From the NCBI GenBank assembly GCA_005281725.1, contig SSBO01000009.1, forward strand, positions 9,021,795-9,085,794: a stretch of 64,000 nt of DNA. Direction: 5' to 3'. The translations under genes were made by a program, and so were the position numbers. Origin of the DNA: Wuchereria bancrofti (lineage: Eukaryota; Nematoda; Chromadorea; Rhabditida; Onchocercidae). Every line of letters begins with the position of its first letter. Position 1 is the first letter of the stretch. This document shows, piece by piece, positions 3,915 through 46,168 of this stretch. The notes under the pieces were generated by a model, which was given only the letters and a program-made list of their open reading frames with translations, made no database searches and was not told the DNA's origin.

Positions 3915-4293
3915 ATGATAAAACATGATTTAAAATGGATAAAATTAAAATCTCAACAATATTATCATCATTTGTCTTATTGGCATATGACTACGTTATC
4001 AACGATCAACGATCAATTATTATCATTTATCAGTGTTAACGATATGATTATTGAAGTATTACTATCTTCATTTCGAATATTTTGCTATCACTTTTCCTCA
4101 TCCATATTGCAACTATTAATTTTCAACCTAATACTACAAACCGTTTTATTACCATATGCTAATGGTAAAACAGATATTGCTATTACTAATTCTAATTCTA
4201 ATAATTCCGGCAATTCTGAAACGGATTCGTCATTATCATCATTACCGGATGATATTTTTGACATACATGAACCGATCAAAAATATTATTGGAG
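3915..4293 (+). other. N-terminal exon with signal peptide
   Basis: First exon of the giant gene, residues 1-126. A hydrophobic stretch at about residues 61-82 (LQLLIFNLILQTVLLPYANG) looks like a signal sequence, but it sits far from the first Met. A second in-frame ATG at 4044 (Met44) would shorten the leader. The acceptor just before 3915 favours the long form; signal-peptide logic favours Met44. A Ser/Asn-rich linker follows, with no domain recognised. Confidence 0.55.
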
Positions 4294-7200
4294 GTAATAA
4301 ATAATATTTGAATTTCTTTTTTTTTATTAGAAAACTTTTAAAATCAAATGAAAAAAAAACTCGTTTCAAAGTATATTCGCTACAAACAAATTTTTTTTCT
4401 GTTGTTTTTTAAAATTTTCTTCTCCTTTTTTAAAATGAAAAATGAAAAACAAAAACGAAGAAAAGTTTGATAGAAATTTGTTTTTCGTTCTCATAGCTAA
4501 CAGATATAATCAAATAACTAAGATCAGACGTAAAATATAAAAGCTTTTTACTATGCAAAAAAATGAAATGAATGCAATCAAAAAAATGATTTGAAAAAGA
4601 GGGGAGGGAGAGAGAGAGAGAGAGAGAGAGAGAAGAAAAGGGATTCATTAATTTATTCCTTCTTTTCCTTTTTAATTCTGAAAATTAATGTTTTCGATCA
4701 AATCATGGCTAAAAAAATATTTTGATTAAAGGATTTTAAAATTAACACGAAAACAGTATTTCGGTTATTTTGAATTAGTACTAGAAAGTAGTGTTTTGAT
4801 TAAATTATCTTAAAGTTAATAATAAGGAATTGCATGCGATTAAATTATTTGAAAATTGTCACCATGGAAGCATTTCGATTTAATTATTTCTAGCATTAAT
4901 GGTAGAGAGATATTTCAATTAAATTAATCATTAGTCTTTCAAAAACATATTATTTTCCTATTTATTTATTTATTTTTTGTAATTTTACTGAAATTTTTGG
5001 AAGTTTTAAAAGATATTGCCAAATAAGCTATGAAATTTCATAAGATCACTTTTTGACTTTCTTAAAATGAGAGATATTATTAAATCCTAAATTTATTATT
5101 TAAGGTTTAATGACTTTAGGAATAGAAGTCAGATTAATATGATTTAAAGATATATTTAAAAATGATAAATAAATGAATAAATGAAATTCGAAAAGCAGAA
5201 AAAATAATTGTAATATAATTTAAAATTTCCTTTTTTTCTTGATTATTAATCTATCCATATTATTAACTTTTATTTTCGCTTTTTTTCGAAATAAAAAAAA
5301 AAAAGTCTTTCCAAAGGTAAATAAACACATATATCTTATTCACAGGTGTGTATTCAAGTAATATAACTTTGTATTATCGTAATTCGCCATATCATGTCCA
5401 AACCGATTTGACAATTGAGACGAATGCCGTTTTAACAATCGAAACTGGTGTACGAATTTATTTCGATAATGGTATTGGTATTAAAATTAAAGGAACTATA
5501 AGGGCTATGGTTAGTATTATTATGACTGTCGTTATTACTATTATTATGTATTATAATTATAATTATTATTTAATGTTATTATTATAATATTATTATTCGT
5601 ATTCTTACGGATAATGGAATTTCATTATTAAACAATGATTTTATAGGGCGATAAGTTCCCTTTCTTTTTTCCTTTTTTTCGTTTTTTATTTTTTTGTCAC
5701 ATTTAGATTATATTTAAGTGAAATTTCACACATAATAAAATAACATCGTATTTACATGTAACAATTAATAATAAAATATTTTATAAATATTTACGTGAAA
5801 ATAACACGTTTCATATAAAATTAGTTTTACGCATATTCATTTATTACACGTGATATTAGAAAAAGCAAAAAAAAAAAGAAAATGGAGTTATTAAAAAAAG
5901 ACTAAGTAAATTTAAATTAGCTATTTATAATTTTTAATTTTCTTTTCAAATCTGTATATTTCGTTCTTTTTTTACTTTTTAAGAATTCCAATATTACATA
6001 TTAAAATTTGGAGAAAATGACTGGCTAAAACTTGTTTTATTTGATTGTATTTTTTCTTTCATTCTTTTGTTGAAGGTTGAAATGATACACAATGTGAATG
6101 ATACATGACAGAACATTTCAAAAAAAAGTCATCGTTCTTCCTCAATAAAAATAAGAAATGATCGAATAATGTTTGCAAAAGACTATTTGAAAAATTTTTC
6201 TTCCTTCAACTTTTTTTCTCATTCTTTTTTTATCTCTTTTTGTTCTCCAAATTTTTCACAAATTTGAAATTTTAATTTTAAATATTATTGCGTGAGAAAC
6301 TGACAAAAATTTTGCACAACTGAGTTTGTTTCAATTTTTTTTTTGCATTATTTGAAAAAAAAAAATGAAGGAAATTTGAAATTTGTGATAAATAAGAATT
6401 AGAAGTAAAACGCTTTAATGTAAAAAAGAAAATGAATCATTTAATATTGATATATTATTTTAAAATGAATCACGCAAGAAAAAAAATAGCAAAAACTAAA
6501 GAAGAAAGAAGTGCATTACTAAAATTTTAATTGAATAAATAGTTGATAATGGAAAAAAAAAGCAAAAGAAACAGCGAATGTTGAGGAAATTTCATTTTTT
6601 AATTTTTGTTTTTTAAAAAAAGAAAACTTTCAAAAATACATGTAAATAAAAAAAAAAATAAAAGCAAAATTGATAAAATGCATAAGATTCCGTATCAAAT
6701 TATCAGCCAACTATAGTAGCTTTAAAAACAAAAATGAAATGCCTTAGTTGGCATTCATTCTTTTCCCATTTTTTCTTTTGTTTTTCTAAGAGAATATGAA
6801 AGCCTTCTTATCCTTTTATTTATTTATTCATTTGGTTTCTCTCCTTTTTTTTTTCATTTTTACTTTATTTTCTTACTTTTCATTTCTAAAATGATTTTTT
6901 TTTTCAAAAAAAAGGAGAGAAAAGATTAAAAATGGGCAGCGATAAGGAACAAAAAAAAAAAGAAAGAACGAAAAAACGAAATCTGAAATGAAATTGAAAT
7001 TTAATTGATGTAAAAAGAAGAAAAACGAGAAATAGGCTTAGAATAATTAAACTGTAAAAGAAAATAAAATTATCGGCTATAATAAAAATTGTCATTTTCA
7101 CGGTGCGTTATGATTATTAATTAGTTGAATGTAAAAAGAAAAAAAAAAGAAAGCAGGAAAAGATTTCAAAACTTCCCATTTTTTTCAAAAAAAATTTTCT

Positions 7201-10200
7201 TAAATTACATAAATGAGAATGAAACACAAATAAAAAAAATTGATTAATAATGTTATCTTGTGCTTACGAATTTTTTTTTAAGAAATATATATTTAATTTG
7301 AAATGCATATATTCATATGACATTACTATCACACTAATTCTTGATTAATGAATAATTAAATTTTCGATAAAAATATTTGTCAGGGAAATGAATTTGCTCA
7401 TATTCAAATGTTACCTTATCAACAAATTATCAATTATGATTTGCAAATGCCACAATTTCGTCTTATTGATGGAACATCCGTACGACAGGGACGATTACAA
7501 ATTAAATTTCAAAATCGTTGGCGGTCAATTTGTACAAAGCTAACAAAGTTAGTTATATATTCTAATATTAACTTTCTTACCTTTTTTCTCTTCTTCTTTT
7601 TACATTTTATTCATTCCAAATAATAATTAAATCAGTAATTTATTTCCATTTCTAATATTATCCGCTGAAAGAGGAGAAAAAATGTATTACAATTGTTTGC
7701 TTCGTTTCTAATATTATCGATTTCTATTGTTTCTATCGATAAATGAATTTAATTAAATGATTCTTCCGTTTCTATTTTTAATATAATCCATTGACTCGTC
7801 CATTTTTCATTTCGTCATTGAAAATGATTTATAAGATTTTGCTGTTAAGAAAAAATAATTTCTTTTTTTTTCCTAAAACAAAAACAATTTTTTATTTTTA
7901 ATTTTAACTCCAATCAAATTATATTCAATATAGCAGCTGTAGAAAGCTAATATATTCGAATATATTTCATAAATATTATTAATGAGTGAAATTAATAAAA
8001 AATGATTATGAAGATAAATATGTTCAAGTGGAATCTTTTTTTAAATAATTTAAAATTTAGCAAATAAATAATTAACGAAAGAAATATAATTATTTTAAAC
8101 ACGATTTCTTTTACTTTTTTTTCCTGCTTTTTCCTTTTTTTTAAATTAAAAACATTTTACTTTCATTAAAAAATTCATTTGATCATATGCAATTAACAAA
8201 AAATTACTCTGAAGAATTTTATTATCTATAGATAATAATAATAGTTATGTCTACCACTTATCAATTATCATCACATGACTGAATCTTTTTTTCAAAAAAA
8301 AAAAATCTTTTAAATCTCTTTACAAAAAAGTAAATATTTCATAAATAAATATTCTTCATCTCGAAGATTTTTCATCTCGAAAAGATTTTTTTACGTTTTT
8401 TTTTTTTGTTTTTTTTTTGTTTTAATATGATAGCATATGTCATTTCTGATAAATAATAAAATTTCAAACTTTTTTAGATGAAAGATTTTTAAAATGTAAA
8501 AGTTTAAAAAATATGAAAAAGAAATGAAAAAATATTGTAGCTGGACATCAACAGATATTAGCACAGCATGTCGATCAATGGGTTTCAATGATGGCGGTAT
8601 GTTTTCTAATATAGCCTCTTCTTTTTTCAAAAAATTTTAAATTTCTTCATAAAAATTATGTGTGACACAAAAAAAAAGAAAAAACGGAAAATAAACTCAT
8701 GCTATGATAACTGTAATTTATTCTAATTAATTAAAAACGGTCAAATTTTGATGAAGAAAATTTTAATAATTTAAAAAAATTAAACTACCATAAAGAAATA
8801 TTTATAAAAGCATTAGAAATTTTACAAACGCAATTATTTTATTTCACACATTTAAGGTTTTTGGAAATGGTATGAACGAAATAACGATACATTTCCATTT
8901 GTGATGCCATATCCGAAATGTCCACCAAATGTTTCATCATTATGGGATTGTGAAGGATTTAGCAATCCTAATGCAATACCATTAAGTGAAAATCTTTGCC
9001 AAGGTGAAGATGATTTAGGAATTCGTTGCTGGGGAATACCGGTATTTCTTGGATCAGAAAAACATTGGAAAGGTAAATTTTTTTTTTGCTTCTAATAAAG
9101 TTAACTAACTAATTATTGCTTCATTTTTATTTAATTTCTTTTAACAATAAATAAAAAGTGAAAAAAATGAGTAAAATTGTTTGAAATTTACTTACACATT
9201 TTTTATATTTGAATTTTTTCATATTTCAAATCGTCAAAATAAGAATTGAAGGATAAATTTGAGACTGAAAATCTTTATGTAAAACTTTTTGTAAAAACTT
9301 TCTGATATTAACTCATTCCTGCATTCTTTTTTGCTATTATTATTATTATTGTTATTACCAAAATTGTTGTTAATTTTTTATCAATTCTTATAATATATAT
9401 CAATATTTAATTGTTTTTTGAATTTATTTGTAATTTCAATTTTATCCTTTTCTTCTTCCAGCATTTCCAATGTAAAAGTAAGTACTTTAAATTACTATTA
9501 ATTATAGGCTTGCAAATATTCTCATCATCATTACAGTATGTAAATTCCGATCCTGATATGGTTGCTTTACATCAGGAATCTACTAGTAAACTTGAATTTG
9601 TTGATATACTATATGCTGGATACGATTGGTAATTGTGCTTTATTATTTCTTTCATTTTCATTAAAATTAAACAAGATAAATACTAAAGTATATTATTTAA
9701 AATTTTCTACAAAATAGATCCTTTTATAGGAGATTTTATATGAAAATAATTTCTAAAAGAAACATTCAAAATTTTTCATTGTTAGCAAACATTTATAATA
9801 TTATATAAAATAATTTAAATCGAACAAAAAAAGAGAGAAAATAGAAAGTTTTGTTAATATTTTTGTTAAATTTAATTTTCCGTAATCTTTTCGTTAGATT
9901 TAAAAAAAAAAAAGGATCAGCTTGTTAATTAGCATATTTTATTATTATTGTTATTATTATTTGCTGTTAATTGAAGGTCAACCAAAAATACAACAGCATC
10001 AGTTTGGATTGAAGGTATTCCACCGATTATGAATGGCCTTCGGATCGAGAGAAGTGCCGGTGATGCTATTCATCTTGAACAACTCACCGGTCCTGTTGTC
10101 ATTGCTAATTCAACCATCCGTAATAATAGGTATTATTCATTGGAATTGAATATTCATTCGAGCTGAAGCAAAAAATGGGAAGAAAAAGAAAAGAAAGAAA

Positions 10201-13200
10201 ATCGATTATCAAAATTTTTTTTCGCATTTTAGTCCAATAATGTAAATAAATTATTTACAATAGTAAAAATAAATTCATATCAAGAAAAGCGAAATTTTTG
10301 TAATTTCAATTAGTAAAATGAAATAAATCATTTTGGCTAATTTTTTTCAGGGGAATTATTATGGTTTCAATCACCTAGCTTACTTTTTTTTTGTTTTTCT
10401 TTTTTTTGAGGAAAATTTTTATAATTAATTTCTTTTTGTTTTGAAGGGTGAATGTCTCAATTCTAACTAGTTAGCTAACTTTTTTGTCTTTTTCTATGTA
10501 AAGGTGAATTATGTTAAAATGAACATAGGCATGTTTTTGCAATATTTTCGCAACTTTCGAATTTCATTGAAAGTGAATTAATATTTTTCTAATTATTTTA
10601 CCTGAATCTTCTTTGACAATCATATTAATGATAATCCGACAGAAAAAGTGTTGAAGTGTTATTTATAAAATTTATTGAAAAGGAATTAATTCATCAAACT
10701 TTGTTTTCTTTACAATGTTTCATTTTTTACATAATTTATCACTTTTCATAGAATGGGATTTTTGTCAGTTAATTTTAGAGGTCATGGAATAGCGGTAATA
10801 AACACTACTGATGGCCGAGTTTTTATTAATATGACAACTATTACCGGGAATTACGGTGATGGTATACATTATCGTGAAGGATATGACACGTCTTGGCATT
10901 CTGCCATATCTAGTAAGCGTGGTATATTACTGTAGGCTTTCTCATTTTCCACGTACGGTATTGCAATTACCGTATGTTTGGGTTAATGTTCAGTTGAAGT
11001 AACAAGAAAATTTAGTGATCAATCAAATGTACTGTCTACACTAATATCAATTAAATTATTCTGTTAAAATAATATTAATTAAAGATTAAATTATTCATTT
11101 AGCGAATACTGTACTGGTAAATTTCTAAGCGATTGTTTAAAAATTATCAATGAATTTTCTTAAAAATTCAACTGATTGCAAATTATTTTAATTTAGGTAA
11201 TGGAGCTGAGAAAGACTTAGTACAATTTCGAAATAATAAAAAGCCAAGATTGGATATGTGTACAGAACATAAAATACCGCATACTTTCTTTTTTCCACAT
11301 TTAATTCAAGCAAAGCTTATCAATGGAACAGTAATTGATGGTAACAATGCATCACCTTGTTGGATGGTAATTTCTTCTTTTCATTTGTAATGATTTTTTT
11401 TTCTATGACCTAGCAAACGCTGTATAATTGATCAATAATATTAATTGTTTCATTTATAGCAATTTTGATAATTTCATTCGTCAATTTTTTTTTTGTTTCT
11501 AATTTATTTGAGATTAACTTCATTAAAGGCTAACTTCAAAAATTAGCCTTGAGAGTAAAATTTGTTAAAAATATGCCAAACATTTCCCATTTCTTTCCTG
11601 CAGTATATGCATAACTTTATCTACCGTACGCATTTAGATAGTATCACTACCAACTAAATTACCATATACCTACAGTATACAATTTGTGGCAGTAAAAAAT
11701 GAAAATGATGAAAATCTGGATTCGGAAACTAGATTAATCATATGTGATGCAAATACGAATTATGATGGATGTGATGGTGAACGATATCGTATTCCAATTT
11801 TGAATAATATTCTCCCTCAAACAGTTTCATTCCGGTTATTTAATTATCATTCCATTTTAAATTTCTTTCTTAAATTGATCTTTTTTCTTCATCTTTTTGT
11901 TCATTATGTGTGCAAATATTGAGATATTTTCTAATTTGATAGTTAATTATGTTGGCACGCCGTAATCGGAAATTTAAAAATTTGGTCAAATTAATTAGCT
12001 TTCTATTTAATTAATTGTTTTATTGAGAGCTAGTTGATAGTTCGGTAATAATTCAATATTTGCTAATATTTTTCGATAAATTTCAGCATCTTTCAATTTA
12101 TCCAACTTAACGGTCGGATCGTTTTTCCGCTGAGTGGTTGAAGTTGTTTTTGCTTCAGATATAATCAAATTGCGACTGATATAGATAATAAAATAATGAT
12201 ATAAATAATGAAAAAGAAAAAATTTTTGCAGGACTACTGATCAACCAATATTTCTTTCATTGGAGCATATACCAAGTGGACTAAGTGGTCGAGTTGCTGG
12301 TGATATTAATTTAATTTTTCAAATTCATGCTTCCGTCACTGGTATGTTTGACAGTCTGTCGAAATTGTCATATGAAAAGAATGAAAAAAAGTTGAAGATT
12401 AATAAATATTTTAGTCAAATAATAGTAATTAGAATTTTCGTTTTACGACAACTTTAAATTCATTGGAAATTTCTGTGTTTTAATTTATATCATAATTTAA
12501 GTTTTAGCAATACTATAGCATCCTAAATGAGATCTCATTTAATTTATATTTCTTCATGATGAATGATTACAAAAGTTTAACTTAAATATATCTGACATTT
12601 TCTTACATATTCCTTTTCTTTTTATCCTTTTAGTAGCTAAGTTGAAATTTTCATTTCCAATTATAGATAAAGCATTTTACGGTTTAAATATAACGCATAC
12701 GCTAATAGCAAATAATACGGGAAATGGCATTTTGGCGCAAGATATACGTGAAAGAACAGTGTTAACAAATGTAACAATACTGGAAAATGAGGGAAATGCG
12801 GGATTTCTGGTGCGTGATGGTGCCGCAGATATATGGATTAATGCATCACGAATCAGTGACAATTGGGGTGACGGTATTAATATTTCATATGTTGGTGGTT
12901 CAATTACAATTAATGGTACCATAATTAGTGGCAATAAATGGCGTGGTTCGTCTCTTACTTTTCTTTTTAATATTTTTTGAAAGTTTTTAAATTAAATTTT
13001 TTTTTTGCCAAATTTATTATATTTAGCTTAATTAGCATTTGCATGCCAAATAGGTATGATCTTAACTGTAATCAAATAATATACTGAAAAAAATATCTAA
13101 ATTTTTTAGTTCCACGTTTAAAATTTTAATCAGTAATAACAGCAATTAATAAATGCTAAAAAAAACATTCGTTATGATATTAAATAGAAAGATCAAATTA

Positions 13201-16200
13201 AAATGTAGCTGTTCATACTATATTGAATTGAACTAAATTAAAGAATGGATTGAGCTAAAATGAGTTAAATTAAGCCTAAAATGATGAATTATTATGTTTG
13301 CGCTCACCAATTAAAATGAATGAAAATATTCTTTAACCTATAATTTAGTTAGAAATGAATTAATGAAAATAATTTTAGGTTGTGCATTTCATCAAAATAC
13401 CTCATCGCCATATTTACCTCTTCATCAAGAAATTATTATTAAAGGTCGTCCATCGAATAATATTTTTTATTTACGTACACAAATTGTTGACAATGCATGG
13501 GGCGGTATTTTAATTGGAAATTTTTGTATACCATTATGGAAAAATATTCAACCAAAGGTAAAATTAATTTGAAATCCTTTCATATTTCAATTTTAATCAT
13601 CTAATTTTTATAAATCCCAAACTTTTTTTATGTATTGCCATGATGACATCTACTATATTTTGTTTTTAACTGTACAGTTTTTGATTTTAAGTTCTTACTA
13701 TATTCTTTTCATATAACTTTAAAATTTCTCATTAGTATTTTTCTTTTTTGTGCAGGAAATAGGTAAATATATGTATAATTACGTTGGAATTGGTAGATAT
13801 TTTTATATTTATTTAACTTTCTAAATGAAAGAAATAGATGTCAAAATTTTTTCGAAGAAATTTAAATATGTCAAAAGATTTAATGATTATTCCAGTTCTA
13901 TTTCTGAAACTTTCTATTTCCAAAAAGTTTCACTAACAATTATTTCATTCACCAAATCAGTGATTGAAAATTGAAATATTTATAAAAATTCCAAGATAAG
14001 ATAATGACACAAAAACTTTAAAAAATAAAAATTTCATAAAATTTTTTTGCGAAATTTCATAAAAAAATTTGCTTTTAATTTAGGATGTTATCAATATTAT
14101 TGTTACGTTGGTTAATTTATAAATTTACTATGTAACTTACAGGTGCTAATAAGTTGGACTGAGTTAATTGGAAATCGTTATCATGCATCTATTGAGATAT
14201 TTGCATGCCAGAAAATTGGAATGGCTAATACCATAGTTGATTTTACCGGAAATAGAATTGAAGGTGGTCTAGGTGTAGGTTTCCGGATGGAACCAGCTGT
14301 AAATACCATAACGATTATATCAAGTAATCAATTTATTGCAAATAATAATACTGCCTTGATCATTCGAAATGCTCGTTATCCACAACTGCATAATTTACCT
14401 GCTCAGGTTTGCTCTCTCTTAATTATTTCTTTTTATTTACTAACTTTCGTACGCACATTTTTTTATGCTTATACATATACACAAAGAATAACTTTAAAAA
14501 CATATTTGAATTTTTTTTTTGTTTGTAAATCATATAGTTTTCATTACATACTAATTCAACAATAATTTTGATTATATAAACGTTTATGTTGAAGGACTTA
14601 ATGAAATTTTAATTGAGTAAAGCAATTTAGCAGAATTTTGACCATTAATTTTAATTCTGGTTCTTTTTCAGGTGACTATTTCAAAGAATTCGTTCAAATT
14701 TAATATCGGCCAAAATATCGTTTCTCTTGGCATGGTGGAAGGTTCCCAAATTCAAAATGTTACATTTAATCAACAAAATGAAGTTCGAGAAAATCGTGTC
14801 ATTAATCCATTTCCTTACCTTAATCCACGATCTACTCCTTATGCTGCCTTAGTGGTTTCTAGTAGGTATACCTTAACAATTTCATTATTTTACTAAATTT
14901 TGTTTAATTACGGTTTAAATTCCTCTAACTTTTTGTTAATAAAACCGTTATTATTGTAATTTTTAGCAAGTTTGCTTTGTTAATTTTATTGTTTCACTAA
15001 ATTCTCACCTAACTAAACTATCTTTAGCTAGTAAAATTCCGAAGAATTGTTTCTGTAAGTTATTATTACTTTTTATCATAATTGTCATCTTCATTATTAT
15101 TAATTAGTAAATTAAATTTGCAGCAATGTAATAATCAATCGTAACTGTTTTAAAAATCCTCAAGCGACATATGAAATAGCTAGTGAACTTGCTGAACATG
15201 CTAAATGGATCGATGCTCGAGAAAATAATTGGGGCTACCCAAGACCTGAGTTATTTATGCATCGAATTTTTGATCAATTCAATCGTTATACCTTAGCTGT
15301 TATTGAAGTATGTTGTTTTAGTAATATAAGAAAAAAAAAAACACTATAATTACTTTTTTTTGCTTATTACTAATGCAGTTATTAAAACTATTTATTAGTT
15401 TCAGTTTCGGCTTTTTTTTTTATGACAATCTTGAAAGAAAATACATTTTAGATTTATCATTTTATAATTCTCTTTAATTTTCTTTGCTTCTAATCCATTT
15501 GCTGATTGTTTTCTCACCAAAAATACCGGAAAAAAAAGAATTATTATTGCCAGAAAATATCAAAAATAACTCCCTTTTTTCAAAAAAATTCTTTGTTTTT
15601 AAAAAAGCGCTCGAAAAAATATTTTTAAAATTAAAAAAAAAGAAAATAACATGAATTAAAAGAGAAATTAAAACTTCTGTAATGACCAGTTTTTTTCAGT
15701 AAGGTCACGGAAGAAAAAAAATATAATTTTACAGGTAAATCCATTTGCTGCTGTATGCAATCAACGAAGGCCACATATTACTACCGTACAACAATACTAT
15801 CGTTCATTTCGGAAAGATAGTGAACCGTACATTTTAGGTGGTACTATTTGGGAAAATCAAGATTTAGGAAAGGGCTTGTATACAGTGGTAGATGATTTAA
15901 ATATTGTACCTGGAGCTCGTCTTACATTATCACCAGATACTGTATTACAATTCAATAATGGTTTAGGAATGTTGATTCAGGTGATAGTTACTTTTTTATT
16001 TATCATTATTGAATGTTTGAAATTAGTAGCTGTAATACCGATAAAATTATAAAATAGCAAATTCATTAGCATTATTTAAACATGGAATTCATTCATCGAT
16101 TTAAGATAATTCCAAATAAATCTTTACTTATATTTTATGCTTTGAAATTTACTTGCTATAATTTATATTGAATGGTTTCTTCTTTTTTTTTTAAATTGGT

Positions 16201-22200: not shown

Positions 22201-25200
22201 ACATTAATTTGTATATTTTATAATATAATCATAGCAGATGATAATTAATTGGATTTTTGGATGATAATTAATTAATTATTTGAGGGTTGTTGGATGTTAA
22301 AAATGAATATTCGATCTCATTCATTACGTAATAAAGTAGCAGCTTGGATTCAATATAATTATTTTATACAAAATGGTTTTCTACGTAATACGGAAGAATA
22401 CGTGGATATGTGGCCACGATCATTTACGATTGGTATATTTGGATCACAATTAGCTAATATTCATTTTAATCGTTTATGGAATATTTTATTTGATTTCGAG
22501 CTTATTTCTGGCGCTAAGGTTTAATTATATTCAATTATTTAAGTTTTATGTTTAATTTATTCTTCCTTTTTCTCATATTTTTTTATTTTACATTTTATAT
22601 TATTTTTCATCCTTTTACACTTTATTTCATTCTTATTTTTAGAAAAAAAATAATTTTAATTAAAAGTTATCTCTGTTCAAAGTAACTGATAATAGTTAGA
22701 AATTTTTTTTATAACTTATTCGTACCTATTCTAAGTTAGCTTTTATAAGGTTGCATTTTCTTTTTTTTTCTTTTTTGAAAAACAATGTACTAATTGTGGT
22801 TTTAATGCGAAGTGTGCTTTTTTTCATTGAAATTCATATAAAATTCAAGACTGTTACCTGCTTCTTTGCTATATTTATTTTGCTATTTTTATTTTTTTTC
22901 AAATTTATTAAATAAATTTAATTATTAGAAATTATTTTTTAATTTCTTTTTTCTTGCACAGAGCTCAAATGTGAAGGATACGATGAATGTAACATATAAT
23001 TGGTGGGGTGTTGCTAATGAAGCTGCAATTAATCAACGAATTTTTGATTTTGATGATTGGAATATTTTTACATTGGCAATATTTAGTCCATTCTTTGTTA
23101 CAAAGGAGAATTTCATTAGTTTCTGGTGGAAACCACAAAATGTTTGTCGTAAATTATTAAAAAAATTTTTACAACTTTATTGTAAGAAATATTTTATGGA
23201 AATGTAATTTATCAATGTGTAGGAATTTTGTAAAAATATTTAACTGAGAACATTTAACTAGATTTTTTTTGTCATTCAAAAAATCTCGAAATTATAATTT
23301 ATTTTCTAGAACAGAAAGAAAAAAAAAACGAAAAGAAATACTTTATTAATTAAGTTTAATTTAAAATTAATAATATATTACATCATAAAACAGTTAATAA
23401 TATATTACATTATAAAATAGCTTTATTACATATACTTTTTTGAATTTAAAATTTGGTCAAATTAAATATTAGAATCTTTTATTATTCAGGCTTAATTTTT
23501 CCTTCATCTTTCATTTTTTTGAAAAAAAAATTATTTTTCTTCTCATCTACTATTTTTTATTTATTTACTGGCTTTCTTTTTTTTTTTTTTTCAACACTTT
23601 ATGGCAGTTAATTTTCAATCAAATTTTTATTATTTCAGGGACAATTAGCAAGTGAAAAACATTCAGAACCATCCATTTATAATTTAAATGGTCGTATTTA
23701 TGAATCTAAAAATCTCACTTATAATCGTGAACGTTGGCATGAATTTCCATTTCATTATAAGCCATTTGAACCATATCGAATTATTAAAGATTTAACAATT
23801 ATGCCTGGTGCAACACTTACCATTGAAAAAGGTGTCGAAGTCAGTTAAATTTTAATTAATTCTTTAATTCATTCCTTTCTTTTTCCCTGTTTTCAAAATA
23901 TATTTTATTTATTTTTTTTTCATCTATACTCTTTACGAACATTGTTGTTAACTTTTTGAAGTTAATGAAGTAAAATGAAATCTTTTTCCATTTAAATTTC
24001 TTGCTAGTATTTTGAAATTTGATAAGATAAAAAGTACAAAGACAAAAAAAAAATCGTATAAAAAAATCATCAATAATAAGTTTAGCAATAATTATTAATA
24101 AAATTGGCAATTAATTATTATATATTTATTTATCAGAATATATAATGAATCATTTCTATACTAAATGCTTTTTTAAAAGGTGTCAATTAATTACTTTTTA
24201 ATTTTTAATTTTTATATTAAAATTTAAAAAAAAAGGAATTTTTTGAAGTGATATGGCTAAAAATGAGATTTTTAGGTGCATGTTTGGCCAAATGTACGTA
24301 TCCTTGTTTTGGGTAATTTAAAAGCAGAAGGAACATACTGGGAGCCAATACGTTTTAAACCAATTAACGTAACGGAATATGTAAAAGGACGTGACACAAT
24401 TATGGCACGTCATAAACGTTCAAATCATCATTGTTCATTCATTCGATCCAAGAATTTATGTCGTTATCAAACAAAGCGACAAATTAAATGGTTAATTCTA
24501 ATTAATTTCATCATTTGATTCGTTAGAAAAAACAAAACAAAATACTTCGAATCTGTTTAAAAAAAATTGCTAAATTTGATTTATTTTCTCTCTCTCTCTC
24601 TCTGTCTCTTCTCTCTATTATTCGTAGTTTTTTAAAAATAGTATGCATTAAAATTTTTCATTTTGCTAATAATTTCAATAGCTAAATTTAAATGTAACCG
24701 ATGATTTTTCTTTTTAATTTCATTTTTAGTTATATAATTAAATGATGTCCATTTTGTCCTATTTTATCATTAAAATATTCAAATTGTTAATGAATAAAAA
24801 AGAAGTGAAAGGTAACTAATTTAAAAAAAAAATATATAATCATGCAAAATTAATATATTATGCAGGAATTACAAAAGTTTATTTTACTGCGAAGAAATTT
24901 AAATCATTTTAACAAATTTAATCATCAATTAACAAAACGTTGCAGTTAAATTAATACTTATTTTTAAAAAATTAGATTAATTTAAAATGTTAGATTAATT
25001 TTAAATTAATTACTTTGTTAGGTATGGAAAAGATGCTATTAATCAATATTTTCCATCATTAAATCGATATAATTCATATTATCAACAATTTGGAATACGT
25101 TTGAATGGAACAAAGCCAACTATTGGATTTTTAGAATTTTATAATGCAACAACAAATGAATGGATACCATCATGTGATCGAGCATTTACTATACGAAATG

Positions 25201-28200
25201 CGCAGGTTTTTTTTTTTTTGAAAAATTTTCAATTTCAATCGTTATTTATTTGTTTTTTTTCTTAGAACATATAATTAAAATTCTTAAATGAATAGTAATG
25301 AAAATGTTTTGAAATTTAAAAAATTTTATTGCCAAACGAACAAAAACGAATAATCAATGATTTCTTAATGGTTTAAATTAAATTAAAATATCATTTATTT
25401 TAAATGAAAGAAAAATTTTCCCCAAAAGATTTTTCAACTATTTATTATCAAAAAAAAAGTTAAGGATATTACATTATTTTAAATTGTATTTCCTGTTTGC
25501 TTTATGTTTTTAGTAATAAAAGTTTTTTTTTTTTAAGGCAAAGAAGACAAATTTTTCAATTTAATACTAAGAAAGGAAAAAATGAAGGGGAAAAAAATGA
25601 AATTGTTAAAATTTCAGGTGGTATGTCGTGAACTTGGATTTAAAAGCTTTAATGTTTATGAATGGTTAACACCACGATGGGATTATAATCCAAAATTAAC
25701 AATTCCAAAAAATTATGTTACACCACGGCAATGTACTGGAGAAGAATTAAAATTTGACCATTGTCCACTACGTATGAGTAATAATTTAAGTATGTGGCAA
25801 TGTACTGGTAGTGAGCATTTTAATTATATATATTGTGATGAAAAACCTATCCTAAACAGGTATAATTTTATTTTTTATAGTTTTTTTAATTTTAAACTGA
25901 ATTTAAGGAATTTTATACGAAACTAACTAATTATTTTCTAAACAAATCTGAATTTAAAAATTGAGCAACTGCATTATTTGCTTTCACAAGTCAGAATATT
26001 AAATGAAACTTCTTATTTCAATTAATTTATATTTCAATTTTTCTAATTGTAATAAATAAAAAAATAGTAAATAAAATGAAATAGAATATATTTACAATAA
26101 ATTTAAATATGAAAATGTAATTAACTAATTTGATTTTATAGTAATTATATTGATAATTGGGGTGGTATTACAATTACGCATGATAGCATTGATTACGTAC
26201 AAAGTAATACAACGACAGGTTAAGTTTGTTCAATCATTTATTTCTTCCTTTTTTTCAGTCATTTAATTCATTTCATTCTAATTTTAATTCAATTTAATGC
26301 AATTTGCTGTCAATTCATATATTTTTAACTTTCACCAATTTCAATCAAAATGTAATTACCCAGCAGACAACTTTTTCAAAAAAAAGCTTTGAATAAATAA
26401 ATTGACGAATCAGTAATTAATTTCATCTTATTTCGTTCCATTTCATTTCAATTTCAGTTAATTTAGCTCATTTCATATGCTTTTAATTTTGTCAATTTAA
26501 ATCATAATTTATGTTTTCAAAAGTAAAATTTGAAACAAAAGTGGAAATCCTAAATTAAAAAGTAATAATTTTTTTTCTAATTGTAGAGCAATCAGTACTA
26601 AGAAATGTGGAAATTGTTGGTGGTGGGTTAGCTCATAATGAAACTGTTGACATAGCTACAGTATTATCAATTGGACGCAGTCCGATCTTTGATCATGTGA
26701 ACATAACAAATTCATCAATGCATGGATTACAGGTTTTTCGTTTTTGATTTTAAGAGATGAAATTTAAGAAATAAAAAAGTGCAAATTAAAATTAACAGAA
26801 TTAAAATTTTAGATTTATAAATAATTTGTTGTGAATAATAGCAAAAAAGGTCGTGATACGTTTACATAATATAAAACCAAATTATCGACACATATATAAT
26901 TAAATATGAATTTTAATTTCAAATTTCTTTATAATCAATATTAACACCAAAAACTATCATTCATATTTTGATAAGAGACTCCAAATATAATTCTCTGTTT
27001 TCATTCATTGGAACCAACTAAAAAATCTTATTATAAATGAAGGACTAATTAATTCTAAAATTTATGGCTTTTTTTTTTATTTCTTATTCACTGAATTTAC
27101 AGATTCTCATTCCGTACAGAGATATAATTCTGAACAAACTTAATGTAACACAAAATCATGGTTACGGCATAAGCTTATGGTTATCAAATTTACAGGGGTC
27201 AGGTGGTAATTCAGGTATTTTTATAATTACTAATTTTAATTTATAAGAAGTATTTTGTAGGATTGTAAAAATTTAATACTATGGATATTTCAATTGTATT
27301 AATATTTCTATAATACAAATGCATTTATTATTACAAAAAGTGATTCATTTATTATATAACTTTTCTTTGAAATAATTGTATTGCGATGGTTTATACTACG
27401 GTACAATACAGTATGAAAGTGATATTTTCAGCAAGTGTATTAGGAATGATGAATATTATACCGTATAATGCTCGTGGTTTATTAGATATTTGCGCGGCGC
27501 AAAAAGAATTCGAAGTTTTAAATCGTATAATAATGTTTTACAAATATGATTCGCATACTGTTGATTGTGTTAAAATCTTTACATCATCCGAACGAAGCAT
27601 TGGATTTCGATTTCTTTTGGTAAGGAAAAAAAAAAATAAAAAATTTTCTAATTCAAAAATAGTATGCATCAATTAGAATTATTTGTTTGAAATTGATTTC
27701 AGGTATCACATTGTAGGAAAAAGTCAAAAAATTTCATGAATGCTTTTGTTAAATTTCAAATAATTATCAAATTTAAGTATCACAAAATTTGAACTCAAGT
27801 TTATATTAAATTTTACAACATAATTTGATTATTCTAACGTTTTATAATTTTGCAGAAATTTTATTAATTATAGATCAAGTAGCAGTATGAAAAATTTGAG
27901 ATTTATTACCTGTTTAATCCTATTTATAGTTTAATTTCACATAGTAATCAATTACAGATCAATCCTTACGATGGCTCTCAAATGAATCATGGCCGTTTAG
28001 ATTCAATAACACTCTACAGTGATGCTAAATTTACTCAAATTATACATCAGTTTACTTCACAAACATCAGACTGGTCGTTAAATATCCAAGCAAAATCGCT
28101 TTTGGCTATACATATGCGAGCTAATGCAGCCAATGGAATTTATGGATTTATTGCTGAAATTACTGTTGTTCCAACGTTAACACAAACATGTAAGTGTGTC

Positions 28201-31200
28201 TTTATTGAAATACTTAATTAATCATATGAATAAATTGGAATTAATTACTTTTACAACCAAAATAAATGTGTTTTCTCAAAAAAAAAAGTGTCCCGCATTA
28301 TTTATACGATATTATCCTAAACAATACTTCAAGTTTAACTATGTCTAATATATTTAAAATTTTCGTATACAAATTTTTATAGTATTTTCTAAATTAAGTT
28401 TATTAAATAATAAGTAAATAGGTTAAATTTCTCTTACTAATCTTTAAAATGTGTTAATTTTTTCACTAAAGTAATTATATGGGTATTTTTTGAGGATATT
28501 ATCTTGCATCTTTATAATTGGGATTATAATAGTCTATTGGTCGTATAATTTATTTATATAATGTGCAAGATAATTTTTCAATAATTTCTAGCAGTTCGAA
28601 GTTTTTTTTTTAATATGCTCAATTAAACTTTTATAGACAGAAAAAATCACTTTTTTCATTTTTTTTTTCTCTTTCAGATGCCATAGATGAGGTTTTAATA
28701 CGAAATAGTTACATCGAGAGAAATGACCGTGGTGCGATAATTTATCGTAATACAGGTGAATTAGGACCTAATCTTATAATTAGCAGTTGTATGATTCGGA
28801 AAAATGGCTATCATTTATTTGGTAATATCAGTACAACAAACTATGCTATTCAATTGCATTTTCATAATACATTGGTTGGTAATAAATTTTAATCCTTGTT
28901 GATTTTTATTGTTTACTGTTTACATTTTATCCTTCCCTACAACTATTACTACTGTAATTATTACCGTAATCATATATACCGTAGTAAATAATCATATATA
29001 CCTGTTTAATATAATAGTTTCTAAAATTTAGCAAAAATTTGTCATACTTCCAATTATTTGGTGTCATTTTTTTCTAATTCAATGAATTTTTTGTTGTTTA
29101 CTATTTGCTTTTGTTAGATGATGAATTGAATCATCACTTTGATAAATATCATTTAAAGCAATAATATCATATTTTTTTATTTTTTCATTGCTTAACTTTC
29201 ATAAAATTACATTTTATTTTGCATAATCAATTATCATTACTATAATTTACGGGCATCGTTATCAAATAGAGTTATCGTAATTTCGTTAACAAAAACTCAT
29301 TATGATATCATTTTTTTCATTTCTTTTCCTTTCTTTAATTGTAGTTCGCTCAGTTTCGTAACAATTTATTGATGGATAATATTGGTGGATTAGGAATGAC
29401 TGCACTGACAACAAGTCCAATTGCTCGATTAGCTGTAATTATCCGCGAATGTGCTTTCATGCATAATTCAAATGGTAATATTCTTACTTTTGTAGGAAAT
29501 GGTAATCAGGTTAGTTTCTTTTTTTTTCTCTTTCTCCTCTTTCTTACTCCTCTTCCTCTGTCTTTACCTTCTTATTCCTTATGCTACCAATTTAATTTAT
29601 TCTAATCATTTACTTGAAATTAAATTTTATTATTTGATTCAAATTAGATCATTACTTGGATTATATCATTCATAGCAATAATATTTATCACTAATGTTCA
29701 TACGAGAAAAATTATGCTTAAGATTAGCATGTAATGTTGGAGAAAAAGAAGAAAAAGATTTTTAAATCTCAAAATAAATAGATTTAATGTACTGAATGTT
29801 TGAAAAATTATTGATTATTATTTATTTTGAACTAATTGATTTCTGTTTCTCACTGTGATTTTTTCATCATTTTCTTATTAATCAACCGTTGAAATATTGC
29901 CGATAAAGAATGATTCATTGTAGAAATTATGGTTATTCAGTAATTTGATCCGAAGTAATTATGCATTATATCACGATACAGTACTGCTAAGAGGTATTAC
30001 GGCAAATTTAACACTTAATCTATTCGCTAACAACACAGGCTTACATAATCTCGATTTACGACCTAATTTACCAGATTCGTTGGATTCATATATATTGTAT
30101 AAGAATTGGTTTTATGATAACATTGCTGTTGGACATGGTTATCAGTATCAGGTATCATTCATTCTTTATTTTTTTGAAATCACGGCCTATTTGCTTCAAT
30201 TAAATTTGACCTACTTTAATTTAAAGCTTATCATCTTCTTGTTAGTACTTAAAAAAAGTTCTGCTCTTATCATTTTTTCTTTTTATTAGAATATTTCTGA
30301 TAATTTGATTGGATAATTTGATTTTTCCAATGCAATTCTCATTTTACTATCTATTTCCTTCCACTTTCGTATTGTAGAAAAACGATAAAACAAAATAATC
30401 AACTATATTTTGAATAAAAAAATCGCTTATTTTAGCATAATTGTGTTTAGGAGCGATATGGATATCAACCGGATTATTTAGTTGATGAATTTATGCGTCG
30501 ACCAAAACGACAAATAGTAATGAAAGAAGGTGTAAGTTTTGATTGGTGGACACATATCGGTACAGAATCGGAACGTTATCGAAGTACAGTATATGCAGGC
30601 GTTTCAAGTGTACTGTATCGTGCAAATGTTTTCAATAATCCAATTAATCCATATGAGTTAGTTACGGGAAAAACAAATAGGTAAAACAATTATACCATAT
30701 TCGCTAATTAATTCTAATGAATGATTATGATATTTAAATACAATTTTATCCATTATCATTAACAAATGTAGCCACAATATCTTTCTGTAACAATTAAGTC
30801 AAAAAAAAATTGATTATCTTTTCTTTTTATAAATTATTGATCAAGGATTTTTTGAATTTGGAAAATTTAGCATAGTATTATTGTTATAAGTGATGACTAA
30901 TCACCATAATCATAATAGATTTCATTATTCAGATAAGATAAAAGTAAAGTTTAATAGATCGAGAGTTCTTGTTGTATTAGTTATTAGTTTGACTATAGTT
31001 CGAATGGAAATTTTTAAATTTAAATATTTTGAATTTCTTACAGCCTAGAAGGACATGCAATTGATGCGAGAGAAAATTACTGGGGTTATCCGGGAACAGT
31101 TAGTGTTGCGAGTGGAAAAATCCGTGATTATCATGATTACAAATATTTAATTCGAGTAGATTATGTGCCAGTGCTTGAATCCAATGCATCACTTGTTGAA

Positions 31201-34200
31201 GGCATGTGATTATTGATTACTGAAATAAAACAAAAAAATTTTTCCTTTAAATTGGATAAAATTTATCACGATGAATTATCATAAGAAAGTTACTTAGCAC
31301 GAAATACATATATCAATTCATTAACGTTATAATCATAATTACAGTTATAATAATTCTTGTAAGGTAATAATGAAGAAATTTTCTTAGTTCAGCACAATTT
31401 TTAAAATACTGTTGTAATTTTTCCCCGTATTTTTCCCCCAAAAGATTGATATTAATTATAATATTACAAGTGATATTGAATAATATTCTTCTTACTGCAA
31501 CACATAAATTATTCGCGATTTCCGGTTCTTAACATTTGGAATCATTAAATTATTAAAAAAAAAAAAAAAACAACGAAAGCAGAATCTTTTGGCTTTTCAA
31601 TTGATGTACTGTTAAGAAAAATAAAAGTAAAGTGCTATCTGTTTTCAGGTGACTGTCCAGCCGGATGGTTTCAAATTGGTAGAGATGAATTTAAATCTTG
31701 TTTTCTATACAGCGGTGCGGTAACCACTTATATGGCTGCGGTCAAATTTTGTCAGGTATAAATATAAATACAAATGAATACATGTTGTAACGAGTAGCAA
31801 TAATGATAATAATATTTGTTGCTATTATATTGATAATAATGATAATGTAATTAACTGTAATAACTGTAATATTTTTTTGCTAAATTATGAAAATGTTAAA
31901 ATTTTAATCAAATAGAGAAAATAATCAATTATAATGTTTTTCTTTTTTCTATTTTATAAATGATTTCAGAGATAGAGTAAAACCATAGATATATGGTATG
32001 AAAAACACCCCAAAATTAAAATAATTTTTTTCTATATATAAAATGACCAATGTAGCAAATTAAATCAAACATAATTTATAATTTTGGAAGAAAAGTAAAA
32101 AGACATATTTGTTATTAAGTAATTTTTTTTTGTTAAGTAATCAAAATTGTATGAATTTCTGAGTAAAAGAAGCGCATATTTAAGGGTGAAATTAACTTTT
32201 AGAACTGTTAATTTTAATTAATGACATATATATGCATGAATGAATATTTATGTTTATCGCGGTTTTTTTTTTTTTCTTTTTATGACCTGAAAAACAAAAA
32301 TTATTTTAAATGGGATAGTTTCGAATAGAAATTTTTGAAATGATGCAATAAAATACGAATTATAGGAAACAATAAGTGCGATTTTTGTTATAAGAGATGT
32401 AATAAGAAGAATACGAGAGAAAAAAACTTTCTTTTTCAATTTTTTTCTTCAATTTTAGGAAATGGATGCATTTGTACCATATTTACGAGTTGATGATAGC
32501 AGGCAAAAACAACTTGCAAAACGAATTGATGATATCATACATATGCGAACAAACGATAATCTCGATCACTACAATACTTTTACAGTATTTCCATTCCATA
32601 TTTTCTTTATTACAAAATTGTTAAAATATTATATTTCATTTTAAAAAGCTACTAATGCAGCTATTGATACTTCAATCTTAATTTTAATTGAGTTCAAATT
32701 GGAAAATTCCCCCCCCCCCTCCTCTGTATCCCTTTTTCAATGATTAAATAATTTCAATTCATATTTTGATTGTATAACTTTTTAATTGTTTTGCATTAGT
32801 ATTTAATTTAATTGCATCACCTTTAATAACAATAGTTATGCTAAAATGACAAGTTGAGTAAACAAATTTCTGAAAGTTATCTGGAGAGGAAAAATATGAC
32901 TAATCAATATTTTAACTCTAATGAGCATATTTTATTAAATACTTAGTTCACTTTAACAAAGAGAAAAAAAAAAAGACAAAGAAATGAAAAAAATAGAATT
33001 GATCCTTTTAAGTATTATTCTAATTTCATTAATCAAATTATAGGATGTATACGATAAACAGGTATGGATCTCAGGTGTAACAGTTCCATTAACACAATGT
33101 GGTTGGTTAAGCACACGTACTGGTAATATTGGTACTCAAAATTGCAATAATTTACTGCCATTTGTATGTGAAAAAGGTTAGAAATTATTATTAAACTATA
33201 TTAATAGTTATTAATTTGAATTGAATTGAATTGATTGCAATTACAGTAAAAGAATGAAATTTCTGTTAGTGTGATGTATTTAAATTAGGATCACTAATTA
33301 GAAATGATATTTAGTAAGTTGCAACTTCTTGTAATTGTTATTGCATTAACGGTAACAATATCAAATAGTAAAAAGTCGAAAGCCGATTGAGTAAAAGTTA
33401 TCCCAAAATTAGAGACAAAAAAAAATGTGTGAATAGTAAATTGGAGATGCAAAAAGAAAATTTACTTAATTAATACTTTTAATGAATAGAAGAAAAAATT
33501 ACAACTCAATCAATTATTTTAGACGGGCAATAATCATCATGAAAAGATAAATAATAGTAATTTTGAGATAACTAATTGAAAAGACAACTAGTAATCATAA
33601 GTACTCATAATTAGATGTTGATCATAACAAAAAAATAACCATAACCATAATTAATTAATTACAGGAGTATTATCATACGATGAGCCAACACTTTGGAGAG
33701 GTGGTATAATTATTGCTATAATAGCATTAAGTATACTTTTAGTCATCATTTTACTCTTAGCCGTATGTTGGTACAGAAAATCAAGAAAACGGAAGGAAGA
33801 AGAAGTAAGCCGGAAGGAATGCATCCGCGCTTCATTAAGACTTAGTAAATTAGCAAATGAATTGCGGAAAAATAATGGTGGAAGCCGCCAAATTATCACC
33901 AATGTATAATATTTCATCAGATTTAATCTTTCTTTTTTTAAATAATTTGTTCAATTAGACAAAATTTCTGCTAGAAGGATAATTGAGTTTTATGCTTAAA
34001 CAATTTAATATTTTTAACCACTGTTATTATTAATTATTATTGTTATTATCATTATCATTATTGTTACTGATTATTCCTGTTGTGTAATTTCATTATTCAT
34101 GAAATAACTTCATTATTCATATAATTTTATTACCATTATTATGATTACTATTATTGAATATATTATTATTTCATTTTTAGATGCCAACAAGTGAAATGTT

Positions 34201-36183
34201 AAATGGTGTTGACTTGCAAACGGATGATGCAATCATGAATGCACATCGTAATTTAGTTCACGGAAAGGATAATAATTCATGGTCAACAATAACAAAACCT
34301 GAATTATCCACCGGAATATATTCAGGAAATAATTCCGTTTCTTCATTTCTTGATCAAAATATTAAATGTCGTCCATCTGCTGTAGAATTAAGCAAAGTAA
34401 ATTCTACTATTGATTCATTATGCTCTCGAAATAGCACTGATAGTTTTACATATCATATGCCATCGTCAACATCCAGGTAATAATCATCTAATTTATAAAT
34501 TTTTCTTTAAATTATAATCAAAGTTCTTTTTTTTCTTTATCTACAATTATTCTTTAATTATACCTATTTATTTCAATCAATAATTGTATTTAATTTAAAT
34601 TTAAACAAAATTTGACATGAATCTTATATTTTTTATTAATAATTTTAGAAATTCGATATCACAAAAACCAAATCCATATGCTGAAGTATCATTAAGTGTT
34701 TTTAACACTTATGGAACGATTAATAATCGTACAGGTAATAATAATAATAATCGATCAGTGATCGATCGGCATAATACGGATACATCAACGTGTAGTACAA
34801 GTACGGATACTGTCACATGTTCAACATGTCAAGATTGTAATGAATCAACGCTTACAGAACGATCATCATGGAATGATACAAGTAGCGCTCAATCATCAAT
34901 CATTTCTGATCGAACTATCCAACAAATGGTATTTTTAAAGTTTCTTTTTTCCTTAAACTTTTAAACTAATTATTGTTATTTTTAATTATTGCTATTTATA
35001 CTTCCATAGTTTGCTCATATTATTCATAGATTGTTTATTATTTTATTTTATTATTTAAATTGCAAATTTTATGAAATAACTACAAATGTAAACAGAGGTT
35101 GTCGAAAATAATTAAATAAACAAGTTTAAGTTATAATCATTTCATTTATAATGACAACAATTATGTTTATATTTGAAATAATTGAAGTGTTAGTGATGAA
35201 AAATAAGTTGGTAAATTATATAATTATAGTTATTTAATTTCATTACAGTAACTGGTACTATAAATAAATAATAAGAAATTGTCAATATGTTAACATTCTA
35301 TTTCTCTATGTTTTTTTCTTTTTTTTTTCACTTCAAATAAAAATAGCGAAAAATTTTAGATTAAACCACTTCTTAATCGAACAGAACAATTGACAACAAA
35401 AGCAACAGCAAGAGATGATATGTTATATGTAGTACCTAAAACTTTTATTGATTCACATCCACGATCTACATATAGTAAATTAGTAGATCTTCCACCACCG
35501 CCATTATTTAATCCAAAATTACTTGAGAGTAAGTTAATTTTTCATTTATTTATTTTAAAATAATAAAATTAAAAATTTCTTTTATAATTAAGGAAACTAT
35601 GGAAAAAAATGAAATTTCACATTAATTTTAAAAATTTGATAATCATTATTTTTTATAACATTTTACATTGATTTAATTCTTTATTTTTTATATTTTTTTA
35701 TTTCTTTTTGAATTTTAAATTAATGGAATTTTATCTGTTGTATTAGATGAAAGAAATGGTGAAACATCACTTAAACCGATACGGACCGCACCACCACCGC
35801 CGCCACAATCACTACCAGCAACACTACTACCATCATCATCATCATCATTATCATCATCAACAACAACAACAACACCTTGTATTGCTACCTCAATTAATGA
35901 GCAATTTCATATTCCATTAGAAATTCCAACTATTTCATCGCCACCACGGCGTTCATTCTATGAAATTACAACAGAATTAGTTAAAAATAGGCCTTATAGT
36001 AGTAGCTCATCTTCATATAAAACAAAAATTCGTCCTTCTATACCACCACCAAATCCACCAAATTATGAATATATTCGAAATCCTCAATCAAGTCAATCAC
36101 TTGTTGATCTCATTACACCAACAATACCTTATCAACGAAGTAATTCAACTGGTAAAGCATTACCTATCGAAACATCAATGTAA
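3915..36183 (+). CDS. bark: Giant triple-repeat SRCR/beta-helix/C-type-lectin membrane protein (Bark beetle/Anakonda-like)
   Basis: Reconstructed as 50 exons, all joining in phase, 9867 nt, about 3288 aa. Exons: 3915-4293, 5346-5509, 7384-7547, 8541-8596, 8857-9072, 9508-9628, 9977-10129, 10752-10912, 11197-11366, 11638-11834, 12232-12341, 12667-12945, 13379-13557, 14143-14406, 14672-14865, 15124-15307, 15735-15980, 16227-16346, 16637-16916, 17376-17704, 18077-18305, 18693-18775, 19272-19461, 19724-19959, 20742-20942, 21677-21862, 22285-22518, 22962-23141, 23639-23839, 24276-24490, 25022-25205, 25618-25859, 26142-26218, 26587-26732, 27103-27214, 27432-27619, 27958-28189, 28678-28874, 29345-29509, 29924-30151, 30451-30680, 31044-31201, 31649-31755, 32459-32584, 33044-33176, 33665-33903, 34181-34476, 34649-34928, 35360-35528, 35747-36183. 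Order: signal peptide, three repeats (residues about 127-997, 998-1835, 1836-2693), lectin-like domain, membrane span at about 2828-2850, cytoplasmic tail. Drosophila Bark/Anakonda has the same design and a similar length, and organises tricellular epithelial junctions; the same role here is inference. Least certain: the N-terminus, the acceptors at 11638 and 22285, and the donor at 32584. Confidence 0.85.
5346..15307 (+). other. Extracellular repeat A (exons 2-16)
   Basis: About 871 residues. It opens with a beta-helix-cap motif (DLTIETNAVLTIETGV), then an SRCR domain across exons 3-5 with six cysteines. Asn-rich parallel beta-helix rungs follow (exons 6-8, for example NNTGNG and DNWGDGI type turns in exon 12), a CUB-like stretch in exons 9-11, and further helix rungs in exons 12-15. 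It closes with the block DARENNWGYPRP in exon 16. The order of elements matches repeats B and C. Confidence 0.75.
7384..9072 (+). other. SRCR domain 1 (exons 3-5)
   Basis: Starts at FRLIDGTSVRQGRLQIKF, the typical G-R-L/V-x-V opening, and has W-R-S-I-C. Six cysteines sit in SIC, TAC, PKC, WDC, NLC and IRC contexts, as in group-A/B SRCR folds. Such domains normally bind proteins or glycans outside the cell. Confidence 0.75.
16637..16916 (+). other. SRCR domain 2 (exon 19)
   Basis: A nearly complete SRCR domain in one exon: SGRLEVYVNNQWGTIC, then L-A-C-N-Q-L-G, NIRC, ITNC and ASC. The sixth cysteine (GLRC) is at the start of exon 20. This is the best match to the family consensus of the three. 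Confidence 0.85.
20350..20664 (+). repeat. 154-bp direct duplication flanking a 7-N gap (assembly artefact)
   Basis: Bases 20350-20503 and 20511-20664 read the same over 154 bp, separated only by seven Ns at 20504-20510. This is what results when two overlapping contigs are joined without merging the overlap. It lies inside an intron, so the coding model is unaffected, but that intron is probably about 160 bp shorter in the real genome. Confidence 0.92.
21040..21215 (+). repeat. Degenerate ~40-bp tandem repeat in an intron
   Basis: About four imperfect copies of a unit containing TGATAATTTTTCT and GCAAATAATA-type segments, inside the intron between exons 25 and 26 of the giant gene. Confidence 0.65.
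24408..24419 (+). other. Furin-type site RHKR|S
   Basis: Exon 30 encodes M-A-R-H-K-R-S-N in a basic, Cys-containing insert of repeat C between the cap motif and the SRCR domain. R-x-K-R fits the proprotein-convertase consensus. Cleavage is inferred from the motif only. Confidence 0.4.
25022..25859 (+). other. SRCR domain 3 (exons 31-32)
   Basis: A divergent SRCR domain: cysteines in PSC, VVC, RQC, DHC, WQC and IYC contexts, with C-R-E-L-G-F conserved. The usual G-R-V-E-V opening is replaced by TIGFLEFY, so a simple profile search may miss it. Confidence 0.7.
30499..30510 (+). other. Furin-type site RPKR|Q
   Basis: Exon 41 encodes M-R-R-P-K-R-Q-I-V, shortly before the closing block of repeat C. 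It matches R-x-K-R and lies outside the membrane by the predicted topology. Processing is an inference. Confidence 0.4.
31649..33176 (+). other. C-type-lectin-like domain (exons 43-45)
   Basis: Residues about 2694-2815. It starts CPAGWFQIG and has KSCF, AVKFCQ, VWISGV, TQCGW, QNC and a closing LPFVCEK: six cysteines in the long-form C-type-lectin pattern. Neither an EPN/QPD nor a WND motif is seen, so calcium-dependent sugar binding is unlikely. The exon 42-43 intron uses a GC donor. Confidence 0.85.
33700..33768 (+). other. Single membrane span
   Basis: Exon 46 encodes about 23 hydrophobic residues (GIIIAIIALSILLVIILLLA) followed by W-Y-R-K-S-R-K-R-K, a classic stop-transfer. This makes a type I protein with the repeats outside. 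Confidence 0.9.
33769..36183 (+). other. Cytoplasmic tail with PPxY and C-terminal PDZ-type motif (exons 46-50)
   Basis: About 435 residues, Ser/Thr-rich, with Cys-containing Thr/Ser stretches (exon 48), proline runs (DLPPPPLFNP in exon 49, PPPPPQ in exon 50) and a Ser/Thr homopolymer zone near 35828-35876. PPNY at 36055-36066 fits the WW-binding PPxY motif and overlaps Y-E-Y-I, a Y-x-x-hydrophobic motif. The protein ends E-T-S-M, fitting a class I PDZ ligand (S/T-x-hydrophobic). Scaffold binding is inference. Confidence 0.65.
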
Positions 36184-42579: not shown

Positions 42580-42589
42580 CATCAAAACA

Positions 42590-46168
<3,579 letters not shown>

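Follow-up and report, generated by a model that had tools for sequence, protein, structure and literature searches.

The window, by which we mean the whole stretch of 64,000 nucleotides from Wuchereria bancrofti that was analysed, carries a gene of 50 exons that, judged from its sequence, is a true orthologue of Bark beetle/Anakonda, a protein that in flies seals the sites shared by three adjoining cells. The encoded protein consists of three large units, a C-type-lectin-like domain (CTLD), one membrane span and a long cytoplasmic tail, located as follows.

3915..36183, plus strand: whole gene, Bark/Anakonda orthologue, with 50 exons and 3282 residues (spliced model and relatives)
3915..4293, plus strand: exon 1, with a putative start codon (uncertain) and a hydrophobic, signal-like stretch at residues 63-84 (4101-4166)
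4293..15821, plus strand: unit 1, residues 127-1020; Pfam SRCR E 1.4e-10, Beta_helix 5.2e-8
7456-9032, plus strand: SRCR domain of unit 1, residues 206-313
15224-15235, plus strand: NNWG of unit 1
15822..23671, plus strand: unit 2, residues 1021-1840; SRCR at 16637-17386 (Pfam E 2.2e-16), NWWG at 22998-23009
23672..31200, plus strand: unit 3, residues 1841-2687; SRCR at 25092-25836 (Pfam E 9e-11), NYWG at 31075-31086
31201..33175, plus strand: CTLD, residues 2688-2809, its first codon split by a GC-AG intron
33700..33768, plus strand: membrane span, residues 2822-2844, hydropathy 3.56 over 19 residues
33778..33834, plus strand: juxtamembrane block KSRKRKEEEVSRKECIRAS, residues 2848-2866, in the same register across groups
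36169..36180, plus strand: C-terminal E-T-S-M, PDZ-ligand-like, directly before the stop

A gene finder that made no use of homologues chained 53 exons from 3987 to 36183 (3294 residues). It relied on codon bias and splice signals, drew its initial codon counts from 14 open stretches picked by hand in this region, and took its bounds from the preliminary description of this DNA (3800-36400, with the start within the first 450 bases). With relatives as a guide 51 exons were obtained, and three changes were then made to the guided model by hand: exon 1 was set to 3915-4293, one acceptor was placed at 12667, and a 14-base exon was dropped. This false exon lay at the GC-AG intron 31201-31649 (donor after 31201), between unit 3 and the lectin-like domain, and arose because the gene finder accepted GT donors only. 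The start at 3915 is the one given in the preliminary description and is the first ATG of the open frame; the guided run gave a shorter exon 1. The final model (9849 nt, 3282 aa) has 48 GT-AG introns and one GC-AG intron, in agreement with the 50 exons and about 3288 residues described before. In intron 24, a gap of seven Ns (20504-20510) is flanked directly on both sides by an identical 154 bases, a pattern suggestive of a duplication made in assembly that has added to the length of the intron.

Three repeats of 871, 838 and 858 residues had been proposed. The repeats themselves hold, while their lengths, measured here from start to start, are 894, 820 and 847 residues, the boundaries being a matter of choice. 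Each unit has an SRCR domain above the Pfam cut-off, as had been described. A right-handed beta-helix is found in the units, as in Anakonda/Bark beetle, with Pfam Beta_helix above its cut-off in unit 1 only, so that the beta-helix claimed for every repeat is borne out by Pfam in one of them. The N-x-W-G block said to close each repeat does lie close to where each unit ends (residues 964, 1782 and 2646), but the motif as such is found at two further sites. The CUB-like part is suggested weakly, by fold, through a Foldseek match to the spermadhesin CUB 1spp_B (E 6.2e-3, probability 1.00); Pfam CUB gave no match in the window protein. The lectin-like domain scores 25.7 bits with Lectin_C against a cut-off of 22.6, and six cysteines are present in all 28 aligned lectin-like domains. 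The single membrane span stands beside this domain, as proposed.

On the same strand the window also contains exons of a lactate/malate dehydrogenase-type gene (42587-45532; Pfam Ldh_1_N and Ldh_1_C), exons of a protein with a thioredoxin domain and, after it, a hydrophobic stretch (54934-56289), and exons of a ubiquitin C-terminal hydrolase of family C12 (58664-60560). For a second gene of this genome, nine pieces were matched to Brugia malayi: eight are 83-98% identical, and the ninth (63%) runs through introns. No Rfam family matched the window at gathering scores.

Relatives of the gene and age of its three units

A homologue search (E <= 0.001, with scoring limited to the 7985 candidates that had most words in common) gave 66 matches: 48 nematode records (some partial), nine insect records (seven named bark beetle), two from molluscs, one unnamed and six weak. 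The weak matches covered 2-29% of the query and were left out of the family. The preliminary description had suggested comparing the protein with arthropod and nematode proteomes, and records of both groups were recovered. A record from Wuchereria bancrofti itself is 99.8% identical over 1662 aligned residues. Among the other nematodes, Setaria shares 77% of aligned residues with the window protein, most species 48-55% (Caenorhabditis about 52%) and Trichinella, Trichuris and Romanomermis 41-43%; the figure is 28-30% in the aligned insects, with 28-33% as the overall range for insect Bark, and 26-28% in the molluscs and the unnamed record. With 48 nematode matches, several of which extend over 94-97% of the query, the gene is not a product of chance, and the observation of a full-length gene holds. 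Sequence, unit order and phylogeny agree on the full-length Bark/Anakonda-type identity proposed before. The copy is not particular to one worm, as it is present in many genera of nematodes, among them Trichinella, Trichuris and Romanomermis; in some nematode records the same gene is labelled 'HHIP-like' or 'Deleted in malignant brain tumors 1'.

The name of C. elegans is absent among the 66 matches listed. Identity among the proteins of C. remanei, C. brenneri and C. briggsae is 89-92%, so the C. elegans protein probably sits inside one of their 90% clusters. We also searched the genome (86.5 Mb, 108 contigs) exon by exon for SRCR domains; both matches fell in the window gene (units 2 and 3), and the unit-1 SRCR was missed. 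Going by this one search, the gene may be single-copy.

The age of the triplication was addressed with a tree of units 1, 2 and 3 from 15 of the 28 aligned sequences (45 rows, 791 columns), with four insects, Drosophila not among them. The units fall into three groups by position, each with nematodes, insects and molluscs (SH-aLRT 99/100/100); the program flagged long branches between units 2 and 3, a caution that applies to the way the groups are connected. A tree constrained to hold all 24 nematode units in one group is worse by 562 log-likelihood units (AU test, p-AU 4e-93), and a separate triplication in nematodes is rejected. From the grouping by position and this rejection it follows that, on this tree, the triplication is older than the nematode/insect/mollusc splits sampled and the units have been distinct since, the three-unit form having been fixed before these groups parted. 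With a triplication of such age, the proposed match of three units to three membranes becomes testable across phyla. Unit 1 alone (890 aa), used as a query in a search that reaches close kin only, matched 13 proteins (ten nematode-named and three unnamed) at 43-79% identity. At that level of identity they resemble incomplete models of this gene, and they were rejected as single-unit ancestors; a deeper origin may have escaped a search of this reach.

Cytoplasmic tail motifs and candidate partners

The tail is divergent. Its mean identity to the window protein is 14% in 11 non-filarial nematodes, 9% in five insects and 10% in two molluscs; over the last 12 residues the figures are 39%, 45% and 17% for nematodes, insects and molluscs. 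A C-terminal E-T-[S/A/T]-M is found in 31 of 38 span-bearing nematode models and in all nine insects. These counts omit the ten of the 48 nematode records in which a span was not detected, one of which (P0024) ends in ETSM. The seven span-bearing nematode models that lack the motif are P0007 (ending ESTV), P0031, P0036, P0037, P0039, P0040 and P0044; our guess is that most of them are truncated. Of the three other records, two end in ETEI and one (P0059, labelled low quality) in KLV.

In the juxtamembrane block, 36/39 nematode sequences (the window protein included; misses P0028, P0029 and P0044), 9/9 insect and 3/3 other sequences have R in position 17 together with S in position 19, without a gap. 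The register was anchored on [KR][SA], up to three residues and [KR], so that the first positions are selected and positions 17 and 19 are not. The sequences in all these motif counts are related and do not represent independent events. In the aligned sequences, KSxxR...RxS and E-T-[S/A]-M are thus kept from nematodes to insects in an otherwise divergent tail. In flies the cytoplasmic domain is dispensable for vertex accumulation, according to PMC11698045, which cites Byri et al. 2015, and the conserved motifs offer a concrete and cheap experiment on this region. We found no paper that combines Anakonda, 'PDZ-binding motif' and 'tricellular', although the founding papers may mention the motif. 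A search for the guanylate-kinase family (19 matches) was too general to name a PDZ partner.

The genome holds genes resembling both fly partners of Anakonda. An M6-type gene is marked by three PF01275 exon matches on C3, and one further match lies elsewhere, on C12. An Anakonda fragment comprising the lectin-like domain and the span co-precipitates with fly M6, and palmitoylation of M6 in a three-cysteine cluster, at least one of which is modified, promotes the interaction with Anakonda (PMC11698045). Compared with that cluster of three, the first-span exon of the worm gene (C3:7828885-7828989) has one cysteine just before the span, with more possible in an upstream exon, and worm M6 may recruit its partner differently.

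The Gliotactin-type gene lies on C12; in its product GHDAG replaces the serine elbow and a span is found at the C-terminus. In a tree of 30 of the 120 matches listed, picked by name and by hand and with mixed arthropod labels, the nematode group joins arthropod proteins, some named Gli/glit-1, apart from five serine esterases (support 98); a sure neuroligin outgroup was lacking, so the tree does not separate Gliotactin from neuroligin. Outside nematodes, this query scores highest with serine esterases 840-1020 aa long, some of them two-domain, and Gli-named proteins rank lower. Downstream of the gene, in the same orientation, lies a ribosomal L23-type frame (L019:7890-8195), and the two frames are fused in several nematode records (e.g. 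P0085, P0116). C. elegans glit-1 and rpl-25.1 are described as sharing one operon (PMC5773152); the pair is possibly a conserved nematode operon.

Possible role in worms and comparison with known systems

The nematode protein is probably an epithelial adhesion protein at three-cell contacts, working with M6- and Gliotactin-type partners. As a type I membrane adhesion protein, it would reach into the extracellular space with its three SRCR/beta-helix units. Copies on adjoining epithelial cells would most likely bind each other and gather where three cells meet. The lectin-like domain and the membrane span would associate with an M6-type proteolipid, a Gliotactin-type protein would join the Anakonda-M6 complex, and the short conserved cytoplasmic motifs might link it to an apical-junction scaffold with PDZ domains, such as Discs-large or Scribble of the worm. 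Homophilic adhesion, vertex localisation and M6 binding are carried over here by analogy with fly work and would have to hold in worms.

The premise that nematodes lack classical septate junctions was too strong: PMC6473838 reports septate junctions from the spermatheca and the sp-ut valve of C. elegans and describes them as largely unstudied. Among worm epithelia that could use the protein, the spermatheca, having septate junctions, might thus be the first candidate. A literature search on Anakonda, bark or SRCR with nematodes found no characterised nematode member, in line with the preliminary description, and no localisation, expression or genetics of the gene in a nematode; it covered mostly papers outside subscription. 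A bolder version of the proposal, which we put forward tentatively and hold to be somewhat doubtful, is that nematodes build true tricellular junctions from a set of proteins inherited from ancestral protostomes (Anakonda, M6 and Gliotactin), even without a septate junction, with the KSxxR...RxS and E-T-[S/A]-M code as the anchor, which may connect vertices with the polarity scaffold.

Many nematode epithelia are syncytial and have few three-cell contacts. The protein could instead be an adhesion molecule of two-cell junctions or of neurons and glia, its vertex role having arisen in arthropods. C. elegans GLIT-1 would fit such a reading, being found in the pharynx, the intestine and dopaminergic neurons, and glit-1 mutants are reported to show no raised intestinal permeability (PMC5773152). 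The partners may therefore have other roles in worms, and the permeability result counts against a simple transfer of the fly function. However, the three-unit ectodomain and the lectin-span module have been kept since before the nematode/insect/mollusc split, and M6- and Gliotactin-type genes are both present in the genome; we regard a role away from vertices as unlikely.

The main role in worms might also be pattern recognition, the lectin-like and SRCR domains binding microbes or modified lipoproteins. SpBark of crab, which has the same architecture, bound bacteria and LPS mainly by its CTLD, and its knock-down cut phagocytosis (PMC6716108). Against this, an EPN/QPD-plus-WND pair occurs in none of the 28 aligned CTLDs: WND is absent from all of them, a loose EPN/QPD-type pattern is present in one insect, and the window CTLD has neither. 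A calcium-dependent sugar site is therefore not predicted, but other binding may occur. An identity of about 52% over some 3000 residues, from filaria to Caenorhabditis, is likewise unlike a diversifying immune receptor, and the genome gave no further SRCR match in the exon-by-exon search that missed the unit-1 SRCR. Such a main role seems to us quite improbable.

Finally, an artefact in which neighbouring separate genes were joined in error is exceedingly improbable: exon 1 is uncertain and several nematode records are partial models, but the 50 exons keep a single frame with one stop throughout, and several full-length relatives hold the whole as one protein, the order being identical in the single models of Setaria, Steinernema, Caenorhabditis, Trichinella, insects and molluscs, which makes separate genes unlikely.

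Adhesion at three-cell contacts remains our preferred reading. It would place a vertex-adhesion protein known from flies in the animal group that lends itself best to anatomy at the level of single cells, with three-cell contacts that can be counted. The orthologue is well supported, and specialists could make use of its old triplication and of the conserved motifs in its tail.

Among known systems, the vertebrate SRCR proteins of the PDB (M130, CD5-like, DMBT1) have the SRCR domain in common with the window protein, the query being the unit-2 SRCR alone. SpBark of mud crab is alike by domain description (three SRCR, CTLD and span) and was studied as an antibacterial haemocyte immune receptor (PMC6716108). 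The nematode 'SRCR domain-containing proteins' (Setaria, W. bancrofti, C. briggsae CBG18580) are the same gene, 41-77% identical where full-length, under source names that hide the Bark relationship. The insect 'protein bark beetle', in a set without a Drosophila sequence, differs from the worm protein in the length of the CTLD (99-101 versus 122 residues) and in the tail, but shares with it the three SRCR/beta-helix units with unit-by-unit orthology, the CTLD and the one span, and all nine insect records have a C-terminal ETAM and, like the worm block, a juxtamembrane KSxxR...RxS.
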